From the NCBI RefSeq assembly GCF_014207595.1, contig NZ_JACHGY010000001.1, positions 2,982,836 through 3,046,835 of the forward strand: DNA of 64,000 nt. The letters are read 5' to 3'. Positions within the stretch are counted from its first letter, which is position 1. Each line of letters begins with the position of its first letter. Source of the stretch: Algisphaera agarilytica (GTDB lineage Bacteria; Planctomycetota; Phycisphaerae; Phycisphaerales; Phycisphaeraceae). A model generated the notes under the pieces. The model had not been told where the DNA came from. It saw only the letters and a list, made by a program, of their open reading frames with translations, and searched no databases. The position numbers and the translations under genes were made by a program. This document shows positions 53,395 through 63,992 of this stretch, piece after piece.

Positions 53395-54711
53395 TTGTCC
53401 TTAGAACAAAAGATCCGTGACCGCTCAGCAACCGTCGGGGTGATCGGGCTCGGCTACGTCGGCCTGCCGTTGTGCCACGCCTTCCACGAGGCGGGGTTCG
53501 GTGTCCTGGGCTTCGACGTCGACCAGAAGAAGATCGATCGGCTCAACGCCGGGGAGAACTACCTCAAGCACCTGGGCGAGGAACTGGCCCAGAAGCTCAG
53601 CGGCTCGGACCGCTTCGAGCCCACCACGGATTTCGCCCGCCTAAGCGAAGCGGATGTCGTGATCTCCTGCGTCCCGACCCCGCTGGGCAAGCACCTCGAG
53701 CCGGACCTGTCGTACGTCGAACGGACCACGGCCGACATCGCCGCAGCCCTGCGTCCGGGGCAGCTGGTGGTGCTCGAATCGACCACCTACCCGCGGACCA
53801 CGCGTGAGATCATGCTCCCCGCGTTCGAGGCCAAGGGTTTGGCGTGTGGCAGCGACGACGGGTTCTACCTCGCCTACTCGCCGGAGCGGGAAGACCCGGG
53901 CCGGCAGAATCACAACACCCAGACGATCCCGAAGCTGGTCGGCGGGATCGACGATGAGTCGGGCCGATTGGCGGAGTTGCTCTACTCCGCGGCGATCGCG
54001 CAGGTCCACCGGGTGGACAGTGCCGAGATCGCCGAGGCCGCGAAGCTGCTCGAAAACATCTTCCGGGCGGTGAACATCGCGCTGGTCAATGAGATGAAGG
54101 TCGTGCTGACGAAGATGGGGATCAACATCTTTGATGTGGTCGAAGCGGCGTCAACCAAGCCGTTCGGCTTCATGCCGTTCTACCCCGGCCCCGGCTTGGG
54201 CGGGCACTGCATACCGATCGATCCGTACTACCTGACGTGGAAAGCGCGGGAGGTGGGGATTGCCACACGCTTCATCGAGCTGGCGGGTGAGGTGAACCGC
54301 GACATGCCGGGGTACGTCGTGCAGCGTCTGGCGGAAGGCCTGAACCGACACGGCCTGGCGATCAGCCGGTCGAAGGTGCTGGTGCTGGGGTTGGCGTACA
54401 AGCCGAACGTGGACGATGTGCGGGAGAGCCCGAGCTTCGAGATCATCGAGAAGTTGATCGACGCGGGGGCCGATGTGCAATACAACGACCCGCACATCCC
54501 CAAGCCGTGGAAGGGCCGGAAACACGACCTGACGCTGGAGAGCCAGCCGGTGACGCCCGAGACGCTGGCGGGCTACGACGCGGTGGTCGTGGCCACGCAC
54601 CACGACGCGTACGACTGGCAGATGATCGCCGACCACGCCAAGCTGATCATCGACACCCGCAACGCGTTGCGGGACGTGTCGGGGGATCGTTCGCACATTG
54701 TGATCGCTTGA
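53395..54711 (+). CDS. UDP-sugar 6-dehydrogenase (WbpA/WecC-like)
   Basis: A 438-residue nucleotide-sugar dehydrogenase that oxidises UDP-linked amino sugar to uronic acid in two steps with NAD. The Rossmann motif VIGLGYVGLP is at residues about 14-23. The catalytic Cys272 is in GLGGHCIPIDPYYL. The C-terminal domain has LGLAYKPNVDDVRESP. The length fits UDP-GlcNAc or UDP-ManNAc dehydrogenase rather than UDP-Glc dehydrogenase. The start is TTG at 53395. It opens the polysaccharide locus and supplies precursors for it. Confidence 0.9.
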   Translation: MSLEQKIRDRSATVGVIGLGYVGLPLCHAFHEAGFGVLGFDVDQKKIDRLNAGENYLKHLGEELAQKLSGSDRFEPTTDFARLSEADVVISCVPTPLGKHLEPDLSYVERTTADIAAALRPGQLVVLESTTYPRTTREIMLPAFEAKGLACGSDDGFYLAYSPEREDPGRQNHNTQTIPKLVGGIDDESGRLAELLYSAAIAQVHRVDSAEIAEAAKLLENIFRAVNIALVNEMKVVLTKMGINIFDVVEAASTKPFGFMPFYPGPGLGGHCIPIDPYYLTWKAREVGIATRFIELAGEVNRDMPGYVVQRLAEGLNRHGLAISRSKVLVLGLAYKPNVDDVRESPSFEIIEKLIDAGADVQYNDPHIPKPWKGRKHDLTLESQPVTPETLAGYDAVVVATHHDAYDWQMIADHAKLIIDTRNALRDVSGDRSHIVIA

Positions 54712-54898
54712 TTAACGGCTTGCCCCGGGCGAGGCATGGGGTATGCTTCCGGTCCGGCAGAGGCCCGTTGGGCCGCTGTCAGCGGGGGTTTTGCACCCTC
54801 AACGCGTTGGGTCCGATGGAGGAGTTTTGCCCGGAGGTCCGGTCGTAGCGTTTGGGGGGATTGAATCGGTTCGGTCGGAAACCTGTCCACGCTCTTAC

Positions 54899-57478
54899 AT
54901 GCAGATTCTCTTCATCAATCAGACTTACGCCCCCGACGTTGCGGCGTCGGCCCAGCTGCTCGAAGACATGGCTCGGCAGTTCGCCGACGCTGGTCACGAG
55001 GTGGCGATCGTTACCTCGCGCTCGCTCTACGGCCAGGCCGGGGCGGTGCTGCCGCGTTACGAGAAGCGCGACGGCGTCGAGGTCCACCGGGTCGGGGTCG
55101 CTCGCTTCGGTAAGGGTTCGGTCCGCGCCCGGACGTTTGACGCGACGATGTTCTACCTCGCCGCCACGTTCAAGGCCTGGCGGGTGCGGATGCCCAGCGG
55201 CAAGCCGCAGGTTGTCGTCACGCTGACCAGCCCGCCGTACATCGGGTTCATCGGGGTGATCGTGCGTTTCCTGCTGGGCGGCAACCGCCGAGGGCGCTAC
55301 GCGATCAACTGGTCGATGGACCTCTATCCCGACGTGCTCACCTCGGCGGGGATCGTGAAGCCCGAATCGTTGTTCGGCCGGATGATGCACCGGTTCAACC
55401 TGTGGTGCATGCGGCGGGCCGACCGGGTGGTGACGGTGGGGCGGTGCATGCGCGACCGGGTGGTGGGCCAGGGCGTGGAGCCCGCGGACGTCGAGATGAT
55501 CAGCGTCTGGCCGGTCAGCCGGGTGTTGGAATTGGAGGAAGCGCGACAGCCCTCGAGCTACCGCGAGGCGTGGGGGCTGGAAGACAAGTTTGTTGTGATG
55601 TACTCGGGCAACCTGGGTGTGGCTCACCGGGCCAAGATCCTGGCCGAGGCCGCCCAACGGCTTCAGCACCGCGACGACATCCGCTTTGTCTTTGTGGGCG
55701 GCGGTCGTCGTCGCGACGAGATTACGAAATATGTCGCCGAGCACGGCCTGACCAATGTGTTGGAGAAGGACTACGAGCCCCGCGAGAAACTCGAAGACCT
55801 GCTGCGGCTGGGGGATGTCCACCTCATCACACAGCGCTCGGAATTCACCGGCGTGGTCGTGCCCAGCAAGTTGTTCGGCATCATGGCGTCGTGCCGGCCG
55901 TCGCTGTACGTCGGCCCGCCCGAGGCTGAGGTGGCCCGGGTCTTGACCGAGAGCGGGGGCGGGCAGGTCTGCTCGATGGAGAGTGCCGATGATCTGGTCG
56001 CCCAGATCGAGCGTCTCGCGGACGACCGTTCGATCGCCTTGGATATGGGGCAAAAGGCCCGCGAGGCGGTGCTGACCAGCCACACCCTGCGGGACCGGTT
56101 CGAGAAATTCAATGCGATGCTCGAGGGCTTGCTGGGCCCCGAAGCCGCCCGTGCGATCCATACGCCAGCGATCAACCATGGGCAGAACCTGCCCGCCAAG
56201 CCGCTGCGGGTGTTGTTCATCAACCAGGCCTACGCCCCGGACGCCGCGGCGACCGCGCAGCACTGCGAAGACTTGGCTCGGTACCTCGTCGAGCAGGGCC
56301 ACGGCGTGTCGGTCATCGCCTCGCGATCGATCTACGGCCAAAAGGGTGCCGACCTCCCCGGGCGGGAGACGCGTCACGGCGTGCACGTTAACCGGGTCGG
56401 CTTGTCGCTCTTCGGTAAACGTGGCATCGTCCTGCGGGCCGTCGACTTCGGGCTGTTTTATGTCGCCGCCATGTGGCGGGCGATCTGGATCCGGGTGCCG
56501 ATCGGTGACCGGCTCAGCAAGCCCGACGTCGTGGTCACCCTGACGACGCCTCCGCTCATCGGCATGGTCGGTTGGATGATGCGCCTGCTGCGTCGCTGCC
56601 GGCAGGTGGTGTGGACCATGGACCTGTATCCCGATGTGCTCGTCGCCGCGGGGGTGAGCAAGCAAGACAGTCTGCTGACGCGCTTCTTTGCCTGGCTCAA
56701 CCGGCGTGAGATCGGCCGGGCCGACCGCGTGGTTGCGCTGGGCCGGTGCATGAAGGACCTGATCAAGGCCAAGGGCATCGGCGAGGACCACATCGAAGTC
56801 ATCGGCGTCTGGTCGCCCAACGACCCGCCGGAAGAACTCAGCGATCCGGCCGAGTCCAGCTACCGCGAGGAGTGGGGCCTCGAGGGCAAGTTCGTCGTGC
56901 AATACTCGGGCAACTTCGGCCTCGCCCACGACTACCAGACCTTCTGCGACACCATCCTTGAGCTGCGTGACCGCGACGACATCGTGTTCCTCTTCGCGGG
57001 CGGCGGCAAACGCATCCCGCCGTTGAAAGCGTTTGTCGAACAGCACGGCCTCAAGAACGTCATGATCCAGCCCTACCAGCCGCGTGAACGGCTGCTGGAC
57101 CTGCTGAGCCTGGCGGATGTCCACCTGATCAGCCAGTCCGAGTCGTTCACCGGCATCGTCGTCCCCAGCAAGTTGTTCGGCATCATGGCGGCGGGGCGGA
57201 CGTCGCTGTTTGTCGGCCCGCCCGATGCCGAGGTCGCCCGCGTCCTCGACGAAACCGGGGGCGGCATCCGGTTCCCGCTCGGCGACGCCAAGGCGCTGGC
57301 CGACGTCATCCTCCAACTCGCCCACGACCCCGAACGCGTGCAGCGGATGGGGCAGGCGGCCTTGGATGCGTCGCGCGGCGAACACCACCGCAACAGCCGT
57401 TTCCACGCCTGGGAAGACCTGCTGGTCGAGGTCGTATCGCAAGCCCCGGCGCCGAGTCTGCCGGTGCCCCCTCTGTAA
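54899..57478 (+). CDS. Tandem double GT4 glycosyltransferase
   Basis: An 859-residue protein formed by two complete GT-B glycosyltransferase modules. Module 1 is residues about 1-415; module 2 is about 436-850. They start alike (QILFINQTYAPDVAASAQ against RVLFINQAYAPDAAATAQ). They also share the Rossmann loops SRSLYGQ/SRSIYGQ, MDLYPDVL, FVGGGRR/FAGGGKR, and the nucleotide-sugar region VVPSKLFGIMA. This is the WcaI-like GT4 family. The modules are clearly homologous but diverged, so an old duplication with fusion is likely. ATG 54899 fits the module start; the frame is open upstream. No membrane helix is evident. It may add two consecutive sugars. Confidence 0.9.
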   Translation: MQILFINQTYAPDVAASAQLLEDMARQFADAGHEVAIVTSRSLYGQAGAVLPRYEKRDGVEVHRVGVARFGKGSVRARTFDATMFYLAATFKAWRVRMPSGKPQVVVTLTSPPYIGFIGVIVRFLLGGNRRGRYAINWSMDLYPDVLTSAGIVKPESLFGRMMHRFNLWCMRRADRVVTVGRCMRDRVVGQGVEPADVEMISVWPVSRVLELEEARQPSSYREAWGLEDKFVVMYSGNLGVAHRAKILAEAAQRLQHRDDIRFVFVGGGRRRDEITKYVAEHGLTNVLEKDYEPREKLEDLLRLGDVHLITQRSEFTGVVVPSKLFGIMASCRPSLYVGPPEAEVARVLTESGGGQVCSMESADDLVAQIERLADDRSIALDMGQKAREAVLTSHTLRDRFEKFNAMLEGLLGPEAARAIHTPAINHGQNLPAKPLRVLFINQAYAPDAAATAQHCEDLARYLVEQGHGVSVIASRSIYGQKGADLPGRETRHGVHVNRVGLSLFGKRGIVLRAVDFGLFYVAAMWRAIWIRVPIGDRLSKPDVVVTLTTPPLIGMVGWMMRLLRRCRQVVWTMDLYPDVLVAAGVSKQDSLLTRFFAWLNRREIGRADRVVALGRCMKDLIKAKGIGEDHIEVIGVWSPNDPPEELSDPAESSYREEWGLEGKFVVQYSGNFGLAHDYQTFCDTILELRDRDDIVFLFAGGGKRIPPLKAFVEQHGLKNVMIQPYQPRERLLDLLSLADVHLISQSESFTGIVVPSKLFGIMAAGRTSLFVGPPDAEVARVLDETGGGIRFPLGDAKALADVILQLAHDPERVQRMGQAALDASRGEHHRNSRFHAWEDLLVEVVSQAPAPSLPVPPL

Positions 57479-57496: not shown

Positions 57497-58498
57497 TCAG
57501 GACACCTTGGCCGAAGCCGGTGAATCCGCACGCCCCCAGCCGCGGATGTCGCCTTGGTTGGCCTTACACCACGCGACCGTCTGTTCCACACCTTGTTCCA
57601 GCGGGACCCGAGCGCTCCAGCCGAGTTGCTCGTGGGCGCGTTCCATGCTGAGGCAGCGTCTGGGCTGGCCGTCGGGCTTGTCGTGGTCCCAGGTGATTTG
57701 CCCCTTGAAGCCGGTCGCGTCGGCGATGATCTCGGCCAGTTCCTTGATGGGGGTTTCACGGCCCGATCCGAGGTTGATCGGCGTGGTTTCATCGACGCGG
57801 TCCGCGGTGTGGATCAGCCCGTCGGCCGCATCGGTGACGTAGAGGAACTCGCGGCTGGCTTTGCCCGAGCCCCAGACGCTGACGGTGTCCTCGCCGCGCT
57901 CGATCGCGTGGAGGAACTTTCGGATCAGCGCGGGCATGACGTGGGCGGTCTGCAGGTCGAAGTTGTCGTTGGGCCCGTAGAGGTTCACGGGGATGAGCAT
58001 GCACGATTGGAGGCCGTACTCCCGCCGGTAGCCGTCGAGCATGACGCCCAGGGACAGCTTGGCGATGCCGTAGGGCGCGGTGATGGGGGCGGGGTAGCTG
58101 TTCCAGAACTGGTCTTCGGTGAACGGCCGGGTGGCGTTTTCGGGGTAGGCGCAGACGGTGCCGCAGTGCACGAACTTCCGCAGGCCGTGGATGCGGGCCT
58201 GCTCGATCAGGTGGATGCCCATCGCGAAGTTGGCGTAGAAGAACCGTCCGGGGTGGGCTTGGTTGGCCCCGATCCCGCCGACTTCCGCGGCAAGGTGGAA
58301 GATCACATCGGGCTTAAACCGCTGGTACATCGACGCCACCTGGGCCTCGTCGGTCAGCTCGACCTCGGCGTGGGTGGGGGCGTAGAGCCGGTCCGCGGTC
58401 ACACCGCGGTCACGCAGGGTTTGGCACAGTTGTGTTCCAAGAAAGCCGTGCCCACCGGTGACCAGGATGCGGTCATGTTCAAAGTTGAGGTGACTCAT
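57497..58498 (-). CDS. GDP-L-fucose synthase-like SDR epimerase/reductase
   Basis: A 333-residue short-chain dehydrogenase of the extended type. The NAD(P) motif GGHGFLG is at residues 15-21. The catalytic set is Thr/Ser in CGTVCAYP (about 112-119), Tyr143 and Lys147 (APYGIAK). The WcaG/Fcl pattern (HLAAEVGGIGANQ, NLYGPNDNFD) fits GDP-L-fucose synthase, though other epimerase functions remain possible. ATG 58498 is preferred over 58582 because it begins just before the Rossmann fold. It is convergent with the double glycosyltransferase, 18 bases away. If it makes GDP-fucose, the organism both builds and degrades fucosylated glycans. Confidence 0.82.
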   Translation of the reverse strand: MSHLNFEHDRILVTGGHGFLGTQLCQTLRDRGVTADRLYAPTHAEVELTDEAQVASMYQRFKPDVIFHLAAEVGGIGANQAHPGRFFYANFAMGIHLIEQARIHGLRKFVHCGTVCAYPENATRPFTEDQFWNSYPAPITAPYGIAKLSLGVMLDGYRREYGLQSCMLIPVNLYGPNDNFDLQTAHVMPALIRKFLHAIERGEDTVSVWGSGKASREFLYVTDAADGLIHTADRVDETTPINLGSGRETPIKELAEIIADATGFKGQITWDHDKPDGQPRRCLSMERAHEQLGWSARVPLEQGVEQTVAWCKANQGDIRGWGRADSPASAKVS

Positions 58499-58618
58499 GG
58501 GAAGCAAACGAACAAAAGGAAGTGACGAGAGGAGTATATGCTTACTGTCCCGAGGGGGGTAGAGTTCGTTGAACTCTTTCATACAAACAAAAAGGTGTTG
58601 GGCGGCTTCTCTATTTTC

Positions 58619-60109
58619 TCAGCCCGACGCCAGCATCGCCAGCAACATCACCCCAAACACCAGGGCCCAACTCACCCGGTCGCCCACCGCCCAGGCCACA
58701 GGGTCTTCGTTCATGTGCCCCCGCTGAGCGATCAGCCAGATCCGCGACACCCAGTACACAAACAGCGGCACCACCGGCCAAAGCATGGCCGGCTTGGCGT
58801 AGAGCTCCTTGCTGATCGGGTCGTTGAGGTACAGGCACAGAATCACCGCCCCGGCATACCCCGAGACCACGCCCATCAGCTGGATCAGCCCGCGGTCCTC
58901 GGGCAGGTAGCCCCGCTCGGTGTGACGGGCGGGCTCGCCGGGCTGCGTCGCCGCTTCGTCGGCCATGTTCCGAAGCTCCGCGTATCGCTTGAGAAAACCC
59001 AGGCTCAGAAACAGGAAGATCGACAGCGTCAGCAACCAGAACGACGGGGTGATCTGGACCACCGCGCCACCGGCAAAGATTCGCAGGGCGTACAAACCCG
59101 CCAGCGTGATCACATCCAATAGCAGCCGGCTACGCAGCGTCGTGCTGTAGAGCACCGTCACCACCAAATATGCAACCAGCCAGCCCAGGAATTCGATCGG
59201 CAGGAACACCGCCGCGAACAGCAGGGCGGTCCCCATCAGCACGGGCACCGCGGCGATCGCGGTGGGGATCGGTAATCGGCCCGACGCGATCGGCCGCCGT
59301 GACTTGGTCGGGTGCGTGCGGTCGGCGTGGACGTCCAGAGTGTCGTTCACCAGATAAATGCTCGACGCGGCCAGACAGAAACAAACGATCCCCCAGAACA
59401 CACTCAGCAGGTTGCCCGCCGTGACCGCGTGGCCCGCCAGCATGGGCACCAACAGCAACCCGTTTTTGACCCACTGCCGCGGACGCATCCCCGCCAGCAA
59501 CGCGCCCCACGCCGGGCCTTGCATCTCGAAGGCTCGGCAGGCCCCGCCGTCGCTGGTGACCCGTTGGTACAGCTTTTCGTTACCCCCGGCCATAAGGCGT
59601 TCGTCGGCCTCGGCCCAGATCGGCTCGTCCGCCGAGCTGTCGCCCATGTACGCAAACGGCTGGCCGTCGGCGTGCTTGCGGATGGCTTCCAACTTGGCCT
59701 TGCCCTTCAGGTTGGTCTGCCCGTCCGTTGCCAGCACGTCATCGAAGAGGCCCAGGTGCTCGGCGACACGCTCGGCCGCGGGGCAGTCCGCCGCCGTGGC
59801 CAGGATCAGCTGGCGACCTTGGTCGCGTTGTTCACGCAGATACGCCAACACCTCCGGGCGGTAGGGCAGCTCCGACGCCTCGGGCATCGCCCGCTCCGCC
59901 AGCTGCCGCTTGAGCATTGGCCGCCCTTGAGCCAGCCAGCCCGGCACACACCACAGCGACGCCGGGTCGGCCTTGACCAGCCCGACCGCGCTCTCGATCA
60001 GCAGGTCGCTCTGGATCAGCGTGCCGTCGAGATCGACGTAAAGCGATGGGCCGATCGCCGATGCATCGTTGGCCCCGGGCTTCGGTGAGGTGTCGGCATC
60101 GATCGTCAT
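58619..60109 (-). CDS. HAD phosphatase-UbiA prenyltransferase fusion
   Basis: A 496-residue bifunctional protein. Residues about 22-185 are a HAD hydrolase (nucleophile Asp26 and Asp28 in VDLDGT, late GDSSAD at 156-161). Residues about 205-496 form a UbiA-type membrane prenyltransferase with several helices and the aspartate motif NDTLDVHAD at 255-263. UbiA relatives include the decaprenyl-phosphate 5-phosphoribosyltransferase of mycobacterial arabinan synthesis, in which a phosphatase acts next. A fusion would couple lipid-linked phosphoribose formation with dephosphorylation. This is inference; substrates are not known. It probably supplies a polyprenyl-linked sugar to the polysaccharide locus. 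Confidence 0.88.
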   Translation of the reverse strand: MTIDADTSPKPGANDASAIGPSLYVDLDGTLIQSDLLIESAVGLVKADPASLWCVPGWLAQGRPMLKRQLAERAMPEASELPYRPEVLAYLREQRDQGRQLILATAADCPAAERVAEHLGLFDDVLATDGQTNLKGKAKLEAIRKHADGQPFAYMGDSSADEPIWAEADERLMAGGNEKLYQRVTSDGGACRAFEMQGPAWGALLAGMRPRQWVKNGLLLVPMLAGHAVTAGNLLSVFWGIVCFCLAASSIYLVNDTLDVHADRTHPTKSRRPIASGRLPIPTAIAAVPVLMGTALLFAAVFLPIEFLGWLVAYLVVTVLYSTTLRSRLLLDVITLAGLYALRIFAGGAVVQITPSFWLLTLSIFLFLSLGFLKRYAELRNMADEAATQPGEPARHTERGYLPEDRGLIQLMGVVSGYAGAVILCLYLNDPISKELYAKPAMLWPVVPLFVYWVSRIWLIAQRGHMNEDPVAWAVGDRVSWALVFGVMLLAMLASG

Positions 60110-60420: not shown

Positions 60421-61347
60421 TCACTTGACCACAATCAGTTCGAGCACCGCACGCCGGCCGAACAGCAGATGGACGGCCTTGGCGTAACGGATCAGCCAGA
60501 TCATCGGCCGGGGGCTGGTGCCGTGGCTCAGCAACCAGTTGATGGTCTTGGGGGAATACTGAGCGGAGCCCAGCCGGGTCCCTTGGATACGGCCGAGGAT
60601 ACCCATCTTCGCTTCCTTGAAAACGCTGCCGCAGTTGGGGGCCGAGTGGTCCTGGTTCTCTTTCGAGTACGCGATGCGTTGGCTGATGGGCAGGCTCTTG
60701 CGATCCACGGCCTTCTTTTTTTTGTCCGAGCCGTCTTCGGCGGGTGACGCCCCGTCGGCCGCTGCGTCCTCGGCGGCATCGGGCTGACGTTCGGGCAGCT
60801 CGGGGAAATTGAAAGTTGCTTCGAGGATGAGGGAGTTGTTCAGCCCCGTGAACATGGTCTTGCGGTATGACAGTTCGATTTCGTCTCGGCGGAGGGTGAT
60901 CACCTCGTTGCCGTCGAAGTACGTCACGGTTTCCACGAAATCGAAGATCGTCTGGTTGTAAATCCGGCCCCGCCCGGCATTCATCGCCAACGCCCCGCCG
61001 AGCGTCGCGGGGACCGAGGCGAGGTAGTAGAAGCAGTCGAGGTTGCGGTCCTGGCAGTGCTTCAGGATCACCGAGATGGGCAGCGAAGAGCTCGCCTTGA
61101 CGTGCGTCTCGTCACCTAGCGTGGTCAGGTCTTTCTTGAGCTTGTTGCGAAGAACCAGAGACCGTACTTTGGTTTTTGCAAAAATGGTGTTCGAGCCGTT
61201 GCCGAGGATGTAGAAGTCAACGTTCTTGTCTTTGGCCCAGGCCACGCAATCTTTGAATTCCTCGATCGTTGAGAATTCCGCGTAGTTTTCGAAGTGGTGG
61301 TGGGTCCGGAAAGTGCTGAGTTTGTCTGAGTCGAGTGGTTCGATCAC
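60421..61347 (-). CDS. MurB-like FAD-dependent reductase
   Basis: A 308-residue FAD enzyme related to UDP-N-acetylenolpyruvylglucosamine reductase. It has the MurB loop pattern: LGNGSN (residues 48-53), then VPATLGGALAMNAGRG (112-127) and DEIELSYRKTMF (155-166, Arg162). The catalytic Ser241 is in NCGSVFKE and the C-terminal Glu303 in LELIVV. All three residues that act in MurB seem present. A charged insertion of about 35 residues (187-221, rich in Asp/Ala and Lys) is unusual. Lying next to a pyruvyl transferase rather than to mur genes, it may act on an enolpyruvyl sugar of an exopolysaccharide. It could instead be an ordinary MurB; this cannot be settled here. Confidence 0.8.
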   Translation of the reverse strand: MIEPLDSDKLSTFRTHHHFENYAEFSTIEEFKDCVAWAKDKNVDFYILGNGSNTIFAKTKVRSLVLRNKLKKDLTTLGDETHVKASSSLPISVILKHCQDRNLDCFYYLASVPATLGGALAMNAGRGRIYNQTIFDFVETVTYFDGNEVITLRRDEIELSYRKTMFTGLNNSLILEATFNFPELPERQPDAAEDAAADGASPAEDGSDKKKKAVDRKSLPISQRIAYSKENQDHSAPNCGSVFKEAKMGILGRIQGTRLGSAQYSPKTINWLLSHGTSPRPMIWLIRYAKAVHLLFGRRAVLELIVVK

Positions 61348-62393
61348 GCCAAGGCCTCCGCAAGAAACCCCGTGGATTGATCTCGAAGCGCCGCGAGCTT
61401 TGCTTCAGATTCGGTGAAATCGATGGGGCTGTCCATGGCGGATTCGACATGGTCCGGGCCCTCGATCACCCGGTGCGACAGCCCGACCCGGCTCAGCACA
61501 TCGTCGAGGCGCTGCTGATCGGTGCCCGGCATCCGGACGACGAAGAAGGGCAGTTTCCATTTGATGCAGAAGCACACGCCGTGGAAAGAGTTGGTGACGA
61601 GGTAGCTCGCGTTGCGAATGCAGTAGAGCCATTCGCGGGGGCCGATACCGATCAGGCCTTCGTCGGCACCCGGCGAAAGGACCCCTAGGGAGATCGCGGG
61701 CAGTTGAAGTTTGGCCTTGGCGGCGTTCACCGCCTGGCCGAAGACCTCGGCACGTTTCAGGCAGTACACCGCCATATATTTCTCGGGGAGCTTGGGTACC
61801 GGTCGCTCCACTCCTTCGAAGTCATCGAGAAAGACCGGGTCGAGCACTTCGGTGGGTATCCGGCCGCACGCCTTTTCAACCATCTCACGGCTGACCACAT
61901 CGCGCACCGAGAGGTGGTCGAATTTCAGCAGCTGCTCACGGATTTCTTGCTCGTGGGGATCGAAGGAAACCGTGGAGCCCACGGACGCGGCGTAACTGAT
62001 TCTGCGGTGGTTGTGCTCGGGGCTGATACCCTCGAAGAACGGGCGGTCGTAGCCGCGGTATGAAGAGATGTTCCAAACCTGGTCGCTGCCGATGATCACC
62101 GCGTCGAGGTCTTGATTGGAGCCTGCGAGGGATGCGATATCGTTGTGCGTGTTTTTACTTAGGTGCAACGCTTTCTTGCGAAAACTACCGAACTTCAACC
62201 GCTTCTTGGCCGTCACCCAGGCCGTGCCGGACCTGAGGCCGAAGCGGTTGTAGTGCTTCCGGGCGGACTCGGGGCGGTAGTCGATCACCCGGACGTCGTG
62301 CCCGGCTTTTTCCAGATAAGACTGCGTTGCGTAGGTTTGTAAGACTGCGCCGAAGTTGTCGGCGGCGTGGAAGGTCAATATGCCGATACGCAT
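61344..62393 (-). CDS. Polysaccharide pyruvyl transferase family protein
   Basis: A 349-residue protein of the PS_pyruv_trans family (CsaB/PssM/WcaK relatives), which move pyruvate from phosphoenolpyruvate to a sugar. The N-terminal IGILTFHAADNFGAVLQTYA and the mid DAVIIGSDQVWN are family marks. VTNSFHGVCFCIKWKLPFFV lies late. Its stop overlaps the start of the MurB-like gene by four bases, so the two are very probably made in fixed proportion. It is divergent from the flippase gene, 117 bases away. Role: decorating the polysaccharide assembled by this locus. Confidence 0.85.
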   Translation of the reverse strand: MRIGILTFHAADNFGAVLQTYATQSYLEKAGHDVRVIDYRPESARKHYNRFGLRSGTAWVTAKKRLKFGSFRKKALHLSKNTHNDIASLAGSNQDLDAVIIGSDQVWNISSYRGYDRPFFEGISPEHNHRRISYAASVGSTVSFDPHEQEIREQLLKFDHLSVRDVVSREMVEKACGRIPTEVLDPVFLDDFEGVERPVPKLPEKYMAVYCLKRAEVFGQAVNAAKAKLQLPAISLGVLSPGADEGLIGIGPREWLYCIRNASYLVTNSFHGVCFCIKWKLPFFVVRMPGTDQQRLDDVLSRVGLSHRVIEGPDHVESAMDSPIDFTESEAKLAALRDQSTGFLAEALA

Positions 62394-62510: not shown

Positions 62511-63992
62511 ATGGCTCAGACCCAAAGCAACAACCTTGGCCAACGCGCGGCTCAGGCGCTTGCTTGGACACTGCTGCTCACGTTGTTTTCAAAGGTCATT
62601 TCACTGGGCGGGCAGGTCGTTTTGGCTTGGCTCCTCGCCCCCCGGGCGTTCGGTTTGATCGGCTTGGCGTACACGCTAACGGCGTTCACCGCGCTGCTAC
62701 AGCGGGCCGGGATCCGAGAGGTCCTGGTCCACCGGCACCGGCGTTTTCACCTGTGGGCGACGCCGGGATTCTGGATGTCCCTGACGTTCGGTGTGCTGAC
62801 ATCGGCCGTGATGTTGGGGATGGCCCCGGTCTTGGCCAGGGTCTACGGCGAGCCCGAATTGGTCGGGCTGATCATGGTTCTGGCCCTGGCCGCACCGATC
62901 AACGGCGTCGCCTCGGTCGCCGATGCGAAGCTGCAGAGCCAGCTACGTTTCGGCCTGATCTCGCGGGTCGGGATGCTTCAAGCCATCCTCACCATGGGGC
63001 TGACCATCTTGTTCGCCTGGTTGGGTTTTGGGGCATACAGCTTCGTGATGCCCCAGCCGATTGCGGCACTCTTTAACCTAGTCTGCCTCTGGCGCGCCGC
63101 CGACGTTTCGGTGACGGGCAAGCCCCGCTTCAGTTGTTGGCGTTACCTGCTCAGCGACAGCTTGGTCATGCTGTTGGGCAGCGTGTTGATTGCCGTGATC
63201 GCTCAGGGCGACTACTTCATCCTGGGTCTGGTGCTGGACGCCACGGAGGTCGGCCTCTATTTCTTCGCTTTCAACTTGTCGATTCAGGTCATTACGTTGT
63301 TTAGCAGCCAGTTCACGCGCGTGCTGTTTCCGACCCTTGCATCGATCGACGATCCCTACCGCCAGACCGAGGTCTATCTGCGGGTCAGCCGGATGTTGAC
63401 CCTGGCTGCGATGCCGTTTGCGGGCATGCAGATCCTGATCGCCGATCCGCTGATCCGCCTGATGTTTGATGAGCGTTGGTATCCCGCCATCACGATCTTT
63501 CAGGTGCTCAGCCTCGCGACCGTGTTCCGCGTGGTCAGCACCTCGGCGGGTAGCCTGCTTCAGGCGCAGGGCCGATTCAAATTTCGGCTCTACATCTTTT
63601 GTTGCTACACGCCGATCTTCCTGGCTGCGGTGTATCTCGGGACGGTCAGCCGTGGAGACGCGGTGGGGGCCGCGCTCGGCGTGTCGTCGTTCTACTCGGT
63701 GATCGGTTTCCTGCACGTCTGGCTGATCAGTCATAAATACGGCGGGACGTGGAAGGACATCGTGACGATTTATGCGGCGCCGCTAATCGCCACCGCCTTG
63801 TCGATGGGGATCGCGTGGTTGGCGATGGAGCAGCTGCCGGATGCGACCCCGATCGGCAAGATCGGCTGCATCGCCCTGGGGATCGCGTTGATGTTGCCGA
63901 TCTACGTCTTGGTCGCCCGGCTGCTCGCACGAGAGATTTTTGACGAGATCATCCAGCGGCTGATGAAACTGGTGAAACGAAAACGCGGGTAA
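62511..63992 (+). CDS. Wzx-like polysaccharide flippase
   Basis: A 493-residue inner-membrane protein of the MOP superfamily, with about 12-14 hydrophobic helices and a short basic C-terminus (LMKLVKRKRG). The N-terminal AWTLLLTLFSKVISLGGQVV and the motif around LAPRAFGLIGLAYTL are typical of O-antigen/polysaccharide flippases (MviN/RfbX type). It moves undecaprenyl-linked repeat units across the membrane. It ends eight bases before the window does. The ATG at 62511 has no clear ribosome site. The flippase and the modifying enzymes next to it suggest Wzx/Wzy-type export; polymerase not in window. Confidence 0.9.
   Translation: MAQTQSNNLGQRAAQALAWTLLLTLFSKVISLGGQVVLAWLLAPRAFGLIGLAYTLTAFTALLQRAGIREVLVHRHRRFHLWATPGFWMSLTFGVLTSAVMLGMAPVLARVYGEPELVGLIMVLALAAPINGVASVADAKLQSQLRFGLISRVGMLQAILTMGLTILFAWLGFGAYSFVMPQPIAALFNLVCLWRAADVSVTGKPRFSCWRYLLSDSLVMLLGSVLIAVIAQGDYFILGLVLDATEVGLYFFAFNLSIQVITLFSSQFTRVLFPTLASIDDPYRQTEVYLRVSRMLTLAAMPFAGMQILIADPLIRLMFDERWYPAITIFQVLSLATVFRVVSTSAGSLLQAQGRFKFRLYIFCCYTPIFLAAVYLGTVSRGDAVGAALGVSSFYSVIGFLHVWLISHKYGGTWKDIVTIYAAPLIATALSMGIAWLAMEQLPDATPIGKIGCIALGIALMLPIYVLVARLLAREIFDEIIQRLMKLVKRKRG

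Follow-up and report, generated by a model that had tools for sequence, protein, structure and literature searches.

A divergent MurB-like reductase paired with a polysaccharide pyruvyl transferase as a candidate route to lactyl-ether sugars

Within an exopolysaccharide cluster of the window (the whole stretch of 64,000 nucleotides analysed here), a gene for a polysaccharide pyruvyl transferase (PST) overlaps a gene for a divergent MurB-like reductase. Judging from sequence, we consider it quite likely that the product of the PST is an enolpyruvyl ether, which the MurB-like protein then converts by reduction to a lactyl ether, the two proteins forming a single exopolysaccharide module. Both are known enzyme families, here in a new and widely distributed combination. 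No paper describing the PST–MurB pair was found in the open-access literature (subscription journals lay outside the search); the earlier note had likewise known of no described pathway of this form. A review of glycan pyruvylation leaves MurB unmentioned and covers enolpyruvylation under peptidoglycan (PMC6801904). The open-access literature likewise yielded no described biosynthetic route for polysaccharide lactyl ethers outside MurNAc.

The gene pair and its neighbourhood

The pair and the genes around it are as follows.

60421..61347, minus strand: MurB-like FAD reductase (308 aa, GTG start), from FAD_binding_4, predicted fold and catalytic triad
61344..62393, minus strand: PST (PF04230; 349 aa), from the Pfam match and a GT-B-like predicted fold
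61344..61347, minus strand: four-base GTGA overlap of the PST stop and the MurB-like start
62511..63992, plus strand: Wzx-type polysaccharide flippase, a divergent neighbour (Polysacc_synt_3, 183 bits)
58619..60109, minus strand: HAD-UbiA prenyltransferase (NF006088, 550 bits)
57497..58582, minus strand: GDP-L-fucose-synthase-like NDP-sugar epimerase (domain and family matches)
53395..54711, plus strand: nucleotide-sugar dehydrogenase of the UDP-glucose/GDP-mannose type (domain and family matches)

The PST gene lies upstream, and its TGA stop overlaps the GTG start of the MurB-like gene; the reading frames and the shared four bases are as the earlier note had given them. Glycosyltransferases are also present in the locus, and the nucleotide-sugar dehydrogenase is a possible source of uronic acid. 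A single reading frame at 54743-57478 contains a GT4 glycosyltransferase domain twice in tandem, duplicated and fused. The gene at 58619-60109, also within the polysaccharide cluster, joins a HAD phosphatase to a UbiA-type prenyltransferase and resembles decaprenyl-phosphate phosphoribosyltransferase.

The window's PST matches PF04230 with 104.3 bits (cut-off 25.3) and is the only PST found in the genome. Its model (pLDDT 80.3) has a GT-B-like predicted fold and matches GT-B folds, while a sequence search of the PDB gave no meaningful match. Paired PSTs have the motifs GSD, VR and FH in common, with D104, R164 and H271 invariant in the alignment.

A remote MurB, probably outside the peptidoglycan pathway

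By its predicted structure, the MurB-like protein is a remote, divergent MurB with a MurB fold. FAD_binding_4 is matched with 45 bits, and MurB_C went undetected in the domain search, though the predicted structure corresponds to complete MurB structures. The protein falls below every cut-off of the NCBIfam MurB equivalogs (best 106.5 of 259 bits; TIGR00179 78.9 of 144.5). The AlphaFold model is confident (pLDDT 89.9, pTM 0.86), and comparison with the PDB returned MurB structures for all of the top eighteen matches (best E 4e-21), with DprE1 among the weaker ones (E 6e-8). The catalytic Arg, Ser (or Cys) and Glu of MurB are all present, at the positions the earlier note had assigned: R162 (SYRKTMF), S241 (NCGSVFK) and E303 (VLELIVVK).

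The earlier note had reasoned that if the genome held no other murB, this gene would be the peptidoglycan enzyme. A canonical MurB_C match is found elsewhere in the genome (one match, 103 bits), as is a full-length MurA (490 bits, cut-off 392.7), and the window gene sits in an exopolysaccharide cluster, neither the sole MurB nor among mur genes. Because canonical MurB and MurA are encoded elsewhere, the window protein is not the peptidoglycan enzyme, and a peptidoglycan role for its gene is rejected as far as sequence can tell.

Occurrence of the pair in other genomes

The survey that the earlier note had proposed identified thirteen loci in which a MurB-like protein adjoins or is fused to a PST. 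They span several phyla and include one archaeal plasmid and one phage: the window, a second genome of the same phylum, four cyanobacteria, a Peribacteraceae MAG, Cetobacterium, Novosphingobium, Natrinema, two PST-MurB fusions and a phage MurB-PST fusion. The pair occurs in both gene orders and the fusions in both domain orders.

Plasmids were searched by tblastn, which was the source of the Cetobacterium, Natrinema, Novosphingobium and Paracoccus loci. The PST gene precedes the MurB-like gene in Cetobacterium somerae, in Novosphingobium P6W (with a four-base overlap) and on a plasmid of the archaeon Natrinema pellirubrum, where the genes also overlap. A MurB_C search of archaeal control genomes found no match. 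In Paracoccus aestuarii, plasmid pAES7 encodes an 845-aa protein (L029:2492-5029) with PS_pyruv_trans at residues 50-257, FAD_binding_4 at 559-679 and MurB_C at 724-820. The other PST-MurB fusion (817 aa, L175:8998-11451) comes from OR846590.1. This record was deposited as an Enterococcus phage; its neighbouring genes look bacterial (glycosyltransferases, an ABC exporter, UDP-galactopyranose mutase), and the stretch is probably host or community contamination. A UDP-galactopyranose mutase-like gene lies near both PST-MurB fusions, in unrelated hosts, which hints at galactofuranose as their acceptor.

A scan of viral contigs found the fusion in the opposite order, with MurB (residues 27-275) ahead of PST (294-538) in a 603-aa reading frame (L115:4974-6785). 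It lies downstream of portal protein and minor head protein genes on an IMG/VR contig of a tailed phage. Genes for a glycosyltransferase, an IspD-like cytidylyltransferase and an SDR follow it and make up a phage-borne glycan cassette (L115, L114). Searches of viral contigs that used just the MurB of the window or of Nostoc as query gave no relatives.

Genome contigs were scanned with a MurB alignment, and pairs were sorted by PST adjacency. The scan returned eighty loci, mostly canonical MurB, and three of these had an adjacent PST (the Peribacteraceae MAG and two Nostoc species). At the seventy-seven canonical MurB loci, no PST was found in flanks of up to 6 kb (0/77). Across 392 genomes of the window's phylum, a profile of the pair scored above 250 bits only in the window's genome and in one other (G394), where a PST gene lies beside a pair-type MurB gene; all others scored 166 bits or less. 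Among 149 sampled Nostocales and 292 sampled Cyanobacteria, the pair turned up in two further cyanobacterial genomes (G515 and G1303), in which the MurB gene leads. Thus a PST is present at all six pair-type MurB loci that came from searches on MurB similarity only (Peribacteraceae, the two Nostoc, G394, G515 and G1303), against 0/77 canonical loci, and the pairing exceeds chance. No pair-type match at E 1e-52 was found in Bacillota (348 genomes) or Actinomycetota (296), samples that held no internal positive control.

Among the pair-bearing genomes checked, a separate MurB copy is also present in the window's genome, G394, both Nostoc, G515 and the Peribacteraceae MAG. In Peribacteraceae and Nostoc FACHB-152, the pair stands among genes that do not look polysaccharide-related by eye, and these two-gene cassettes outside polysaccharide clusters indicate that the PST and MurB-like genes are a unit. 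Nostoc CHAB 5715 has a Wzx flippase just upstream of the pair, as in the window. Because its distribution is patchy, we infer that the pair spread by horizontal transfer.

In a tree of MurBs, eight of the twelve pair-type sequences group together (SH-aLRT 99). Novosphingobium and the three fusions (4/12) are placed, weakly, outside this main clade, and one sequence in the tree has a very long branch. A single clade for all pair-type MurBs was neither established nor rejected (p 0.49). Given the four outlying sequences and the very long branch, recruitment of the MurB part may have happened on several occasions, which counts against the lactyl-ether reading.

Residues of the pair-type MurBs

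We compared twelve pair-type MurB sequences with 149 other, canonical ones. The catalytic triad is kept in the pair-type proteins, with Arg and Glu in 12/12 and Ser in 11/12 (Thr in G394). Two positions outside the triad differ between the sets. The Asn or Arg that follows FK is found in 141/149 canonical MurBs and in 0/12 of the pair type, and the histidine of SxKH in 147/149 and in at most 1/12; the window protein has E245 and T268, respectively, at these positions. The Asn of FKNP in E. coli MurB contacts the UDP-sugar, and both residues are probable substrate-side contacts of canonical MurB. Of the pair-type MurBs, 8/12 have an RGR-type insert, against 0/149 canonical ones. With the triad kept and the canonical substrate-side residues lost, the pattern suggests that the chemistry has stayed the same and the acceptor has changed. 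A charged, low-complexity insert (about residues 185-215) is found in the window protein alone.

A model for the pathway

MurB reduces an enolpyruvyl double bond, and a ketal offers none. Because MurB needs this double bond, an enolpyruvyl ether is the simplest reading of the PST product. In a first step, the PST would move the enolpyruvyl group from phosphoenolpyruvate (PEP) onto one sugar hydroxyl, with a nucleotide sugar or a lipid-linked repeat unit as the acceptor. The PST would release the enolpyruvyl ether, or pass it straight to the reductase, before the ring could close to form a ketal, and reduction would outcompete that closure; the fusions are compatible with such channelling. In a second step, which follows the conserved chemistry of MurB, NAD(P)H would reduce the MurB-like flavoprotein, and this would then transfer a hydride to the double bond of the enolpyruvyl group. 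That bond would be polarized by Arg162 and Glu303 and protonated by Ser241, leaving a 1-carboxyethyl (lactyl) ether, and the decorated unit would exit via the adjacent Wzx flippase.

The transfer of a three-carbon unit and its reduction to a lactyl ether, as the earlier note had pictured it, is thus supported as a pathway model by the pairing, the fusions, the triad, the fold and the second MurB, from which we infer the product. More broadly, it seems fairly likely that the PST–MurB module moves horizontally (in bacteria, a haloarchaeon and a phage) and constitutes a second, MurA-independent route to lactyl-ether sugars, such that part of the PST family makes enolpyruvyl ethers and MurB chemistry was recruited outside peptidoglycan. 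If true, this would extend MurB chemistry beyond peptidoglycan and into an archaeon, and it would caution that a genome with two annotated murB genes may encode a polysaccharide enzyme. The model could also explain PST genes in capsule loci without pyruvate ketals.

Alternative explanations

One alternative, which we regard as unlikely, is that the MurB-like protein acts on the substrate or product of the PST and that something other than a lactyl ether results. It might, for example, tailor a ketal-bearing sugar or work in the manner of DprE1, an enzyme with FAD_binding_4, as a sugar oxidase or epimerase partner. The FAD_binding_4 superfamily is broad, DprE1 is among the weaker fold matches, and PSTs have more than one redox neighbour since they also occur beside FrhB-type flavoproteins. 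However, the MurB match is far better than the DprE1 match (E 4e-21 against 6e-8), and the triad for enolpyruvyl reduction is kept (Arg 12/12, Ser 11/12, Glu 12/12).

It is very improbable that the protein provides UDP-MurNAc as a surplus MurB of the peptidoglycan type and stands beside an unrelated, ketal-forming PST through their common location in polysaccharide clusters. Its overall MurB fold and triad would fit such a role, and both genes are common in envelope metabolism. Yet the fusions in both orders, the cassettes of Peribacteraceae and Nostoc FACHB-152 outside polysaccharide clusters, and the absence of PST from all seventy-seven canonical loci argue against mere co-location, while the loss of the FK-following Asn or Arg and of the SxKH histidine, and a copy on an archaeal plasmid when archaeal control genomes had no MurB_C match, speak against a peptidoglycan-type enzyme.

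We give scarcely any credence to a decaying gene pair with no current function. The charged insert peculiar to the window protein could point that way, but it sits in a low-confidence loop of an otherwise confident model, and both frames are open, tightly overlapping and intact in their catalytic residues. That the window gene is the organism's own peptidoglycan MurB has a negligible chance, since membership of the MurB superfamily is set against canonical MurB and MurA elsewhere and the failure of all NCBIfam MurB cut-offs.

Relation to known pathways and polysaccharides

The lactyl-ether model resembles the MurA–MurB pathway to UDP-N-acetylmuramic acid, in which enolpyruvyl transfer from PEP is followed by flavin reduction to a lactyl ether, and it shares the MurB fold and the catalytic Arg, Ser and Glu. 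It differs in that a PST (PF04230, GT-B-like) would stand in for MurA, that the pair-type reductase lacks the FK-following Asn or Arg and the SxKH histidine and often has the RGR insert, and that its context is exopolysaccharide rather than cell wall. Pyruvyltransferases of the CsaB, Pvg1p, WcfO and GumL type have 1-carboxyethylidene ketals as products. The window PST is the same kind of enzyme, belonging to PF04230 and with PEP as the expected donor, but its partner, which at other loci is joined to the PST in one protein, is a probable enolpyruvyl reductase.

Lactyl ethers recur on bacterial polysaccharides (Nostoc, Vibrio, Salinivibrio, Klebsiella), and the conserved, sometimes fused PST–MurB pair is a genetically testable candidate route to lactate-decorated polysaccharides. 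The exopolysaccharide of Vibrio alginolyticus contains 3-O-lactyl glucuronic acid (nosturonic acid), for which Nostoc commune is also cited (PMC5983295), and 4-O-(1-carboxyethyl)mannose is found in Salinivibrio, where the methyl of the 1-carboxyethyl group resonates near 1.40 ppm in NMR, with Cyanospira cited (PMC8466920). Solved structures exist for Nostoc commune DRH-1, Vibrio alginolyticus CNCM I-5034 and Salinivibrio EG9S8QL. We found no strain with both a sequenced pair and a solved lactyl-ether polysaccharide, and the Nostoc match is at genus level only.

The Klebsiella K66 capsule also carries a lactyl ether. Klebsiella K8, K22, K37 and K66 have pyruvyl transferase genes and capsules without pyruvate (PMC4616057); the K22 capsule is cited with 4-O-[(S)-1-carboxyethyl]-glucuronic acid, and K37 is given the same sugars (PMC7246685). 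Because K22 and K37 combine PST genes and lactyl glucuronic acid with no ketals, a PST is a plausible source of the lactyl ether. The earlier note had held against its own proposal that this transferase family makes ketals. The objection stands insofar as characterized PSTs are treated as ketal-forming (PMC6801904) and is weakened by the Klebsiella PST genes without pyruvate (PMC4616057, PMC7246685). The K22 and K37 loci thus resemble the proposed pathway in having a PST in the cluster and a polymer with a lactyl ether and no pyruvate ketal; they differ in that the reported lactyl group is (S), and the comparison covers PST genes and capsule sugars. MurB makes the (R) lactyl group, and the (S) configuration in K22 counts against the model.

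E. coli genomes searched with Klebsiella FrhB-PST DNA gave no match, and the pair could therefore not be linked to any of the E. coli O-antigens known to bear a lactyl ether. PST genes adjoin FrhB/FdhB-type flavoprotein genes in Sinorhizobium and on a Klebsiella aerogenes plasmid (L176:6001-8476, L177:1849-4412). As in the window, a PST there neighbours a flavoprotein oxidoreductase, though of a family unrelated to MurB, and this is possibly an analogous PST–reductase pairing.
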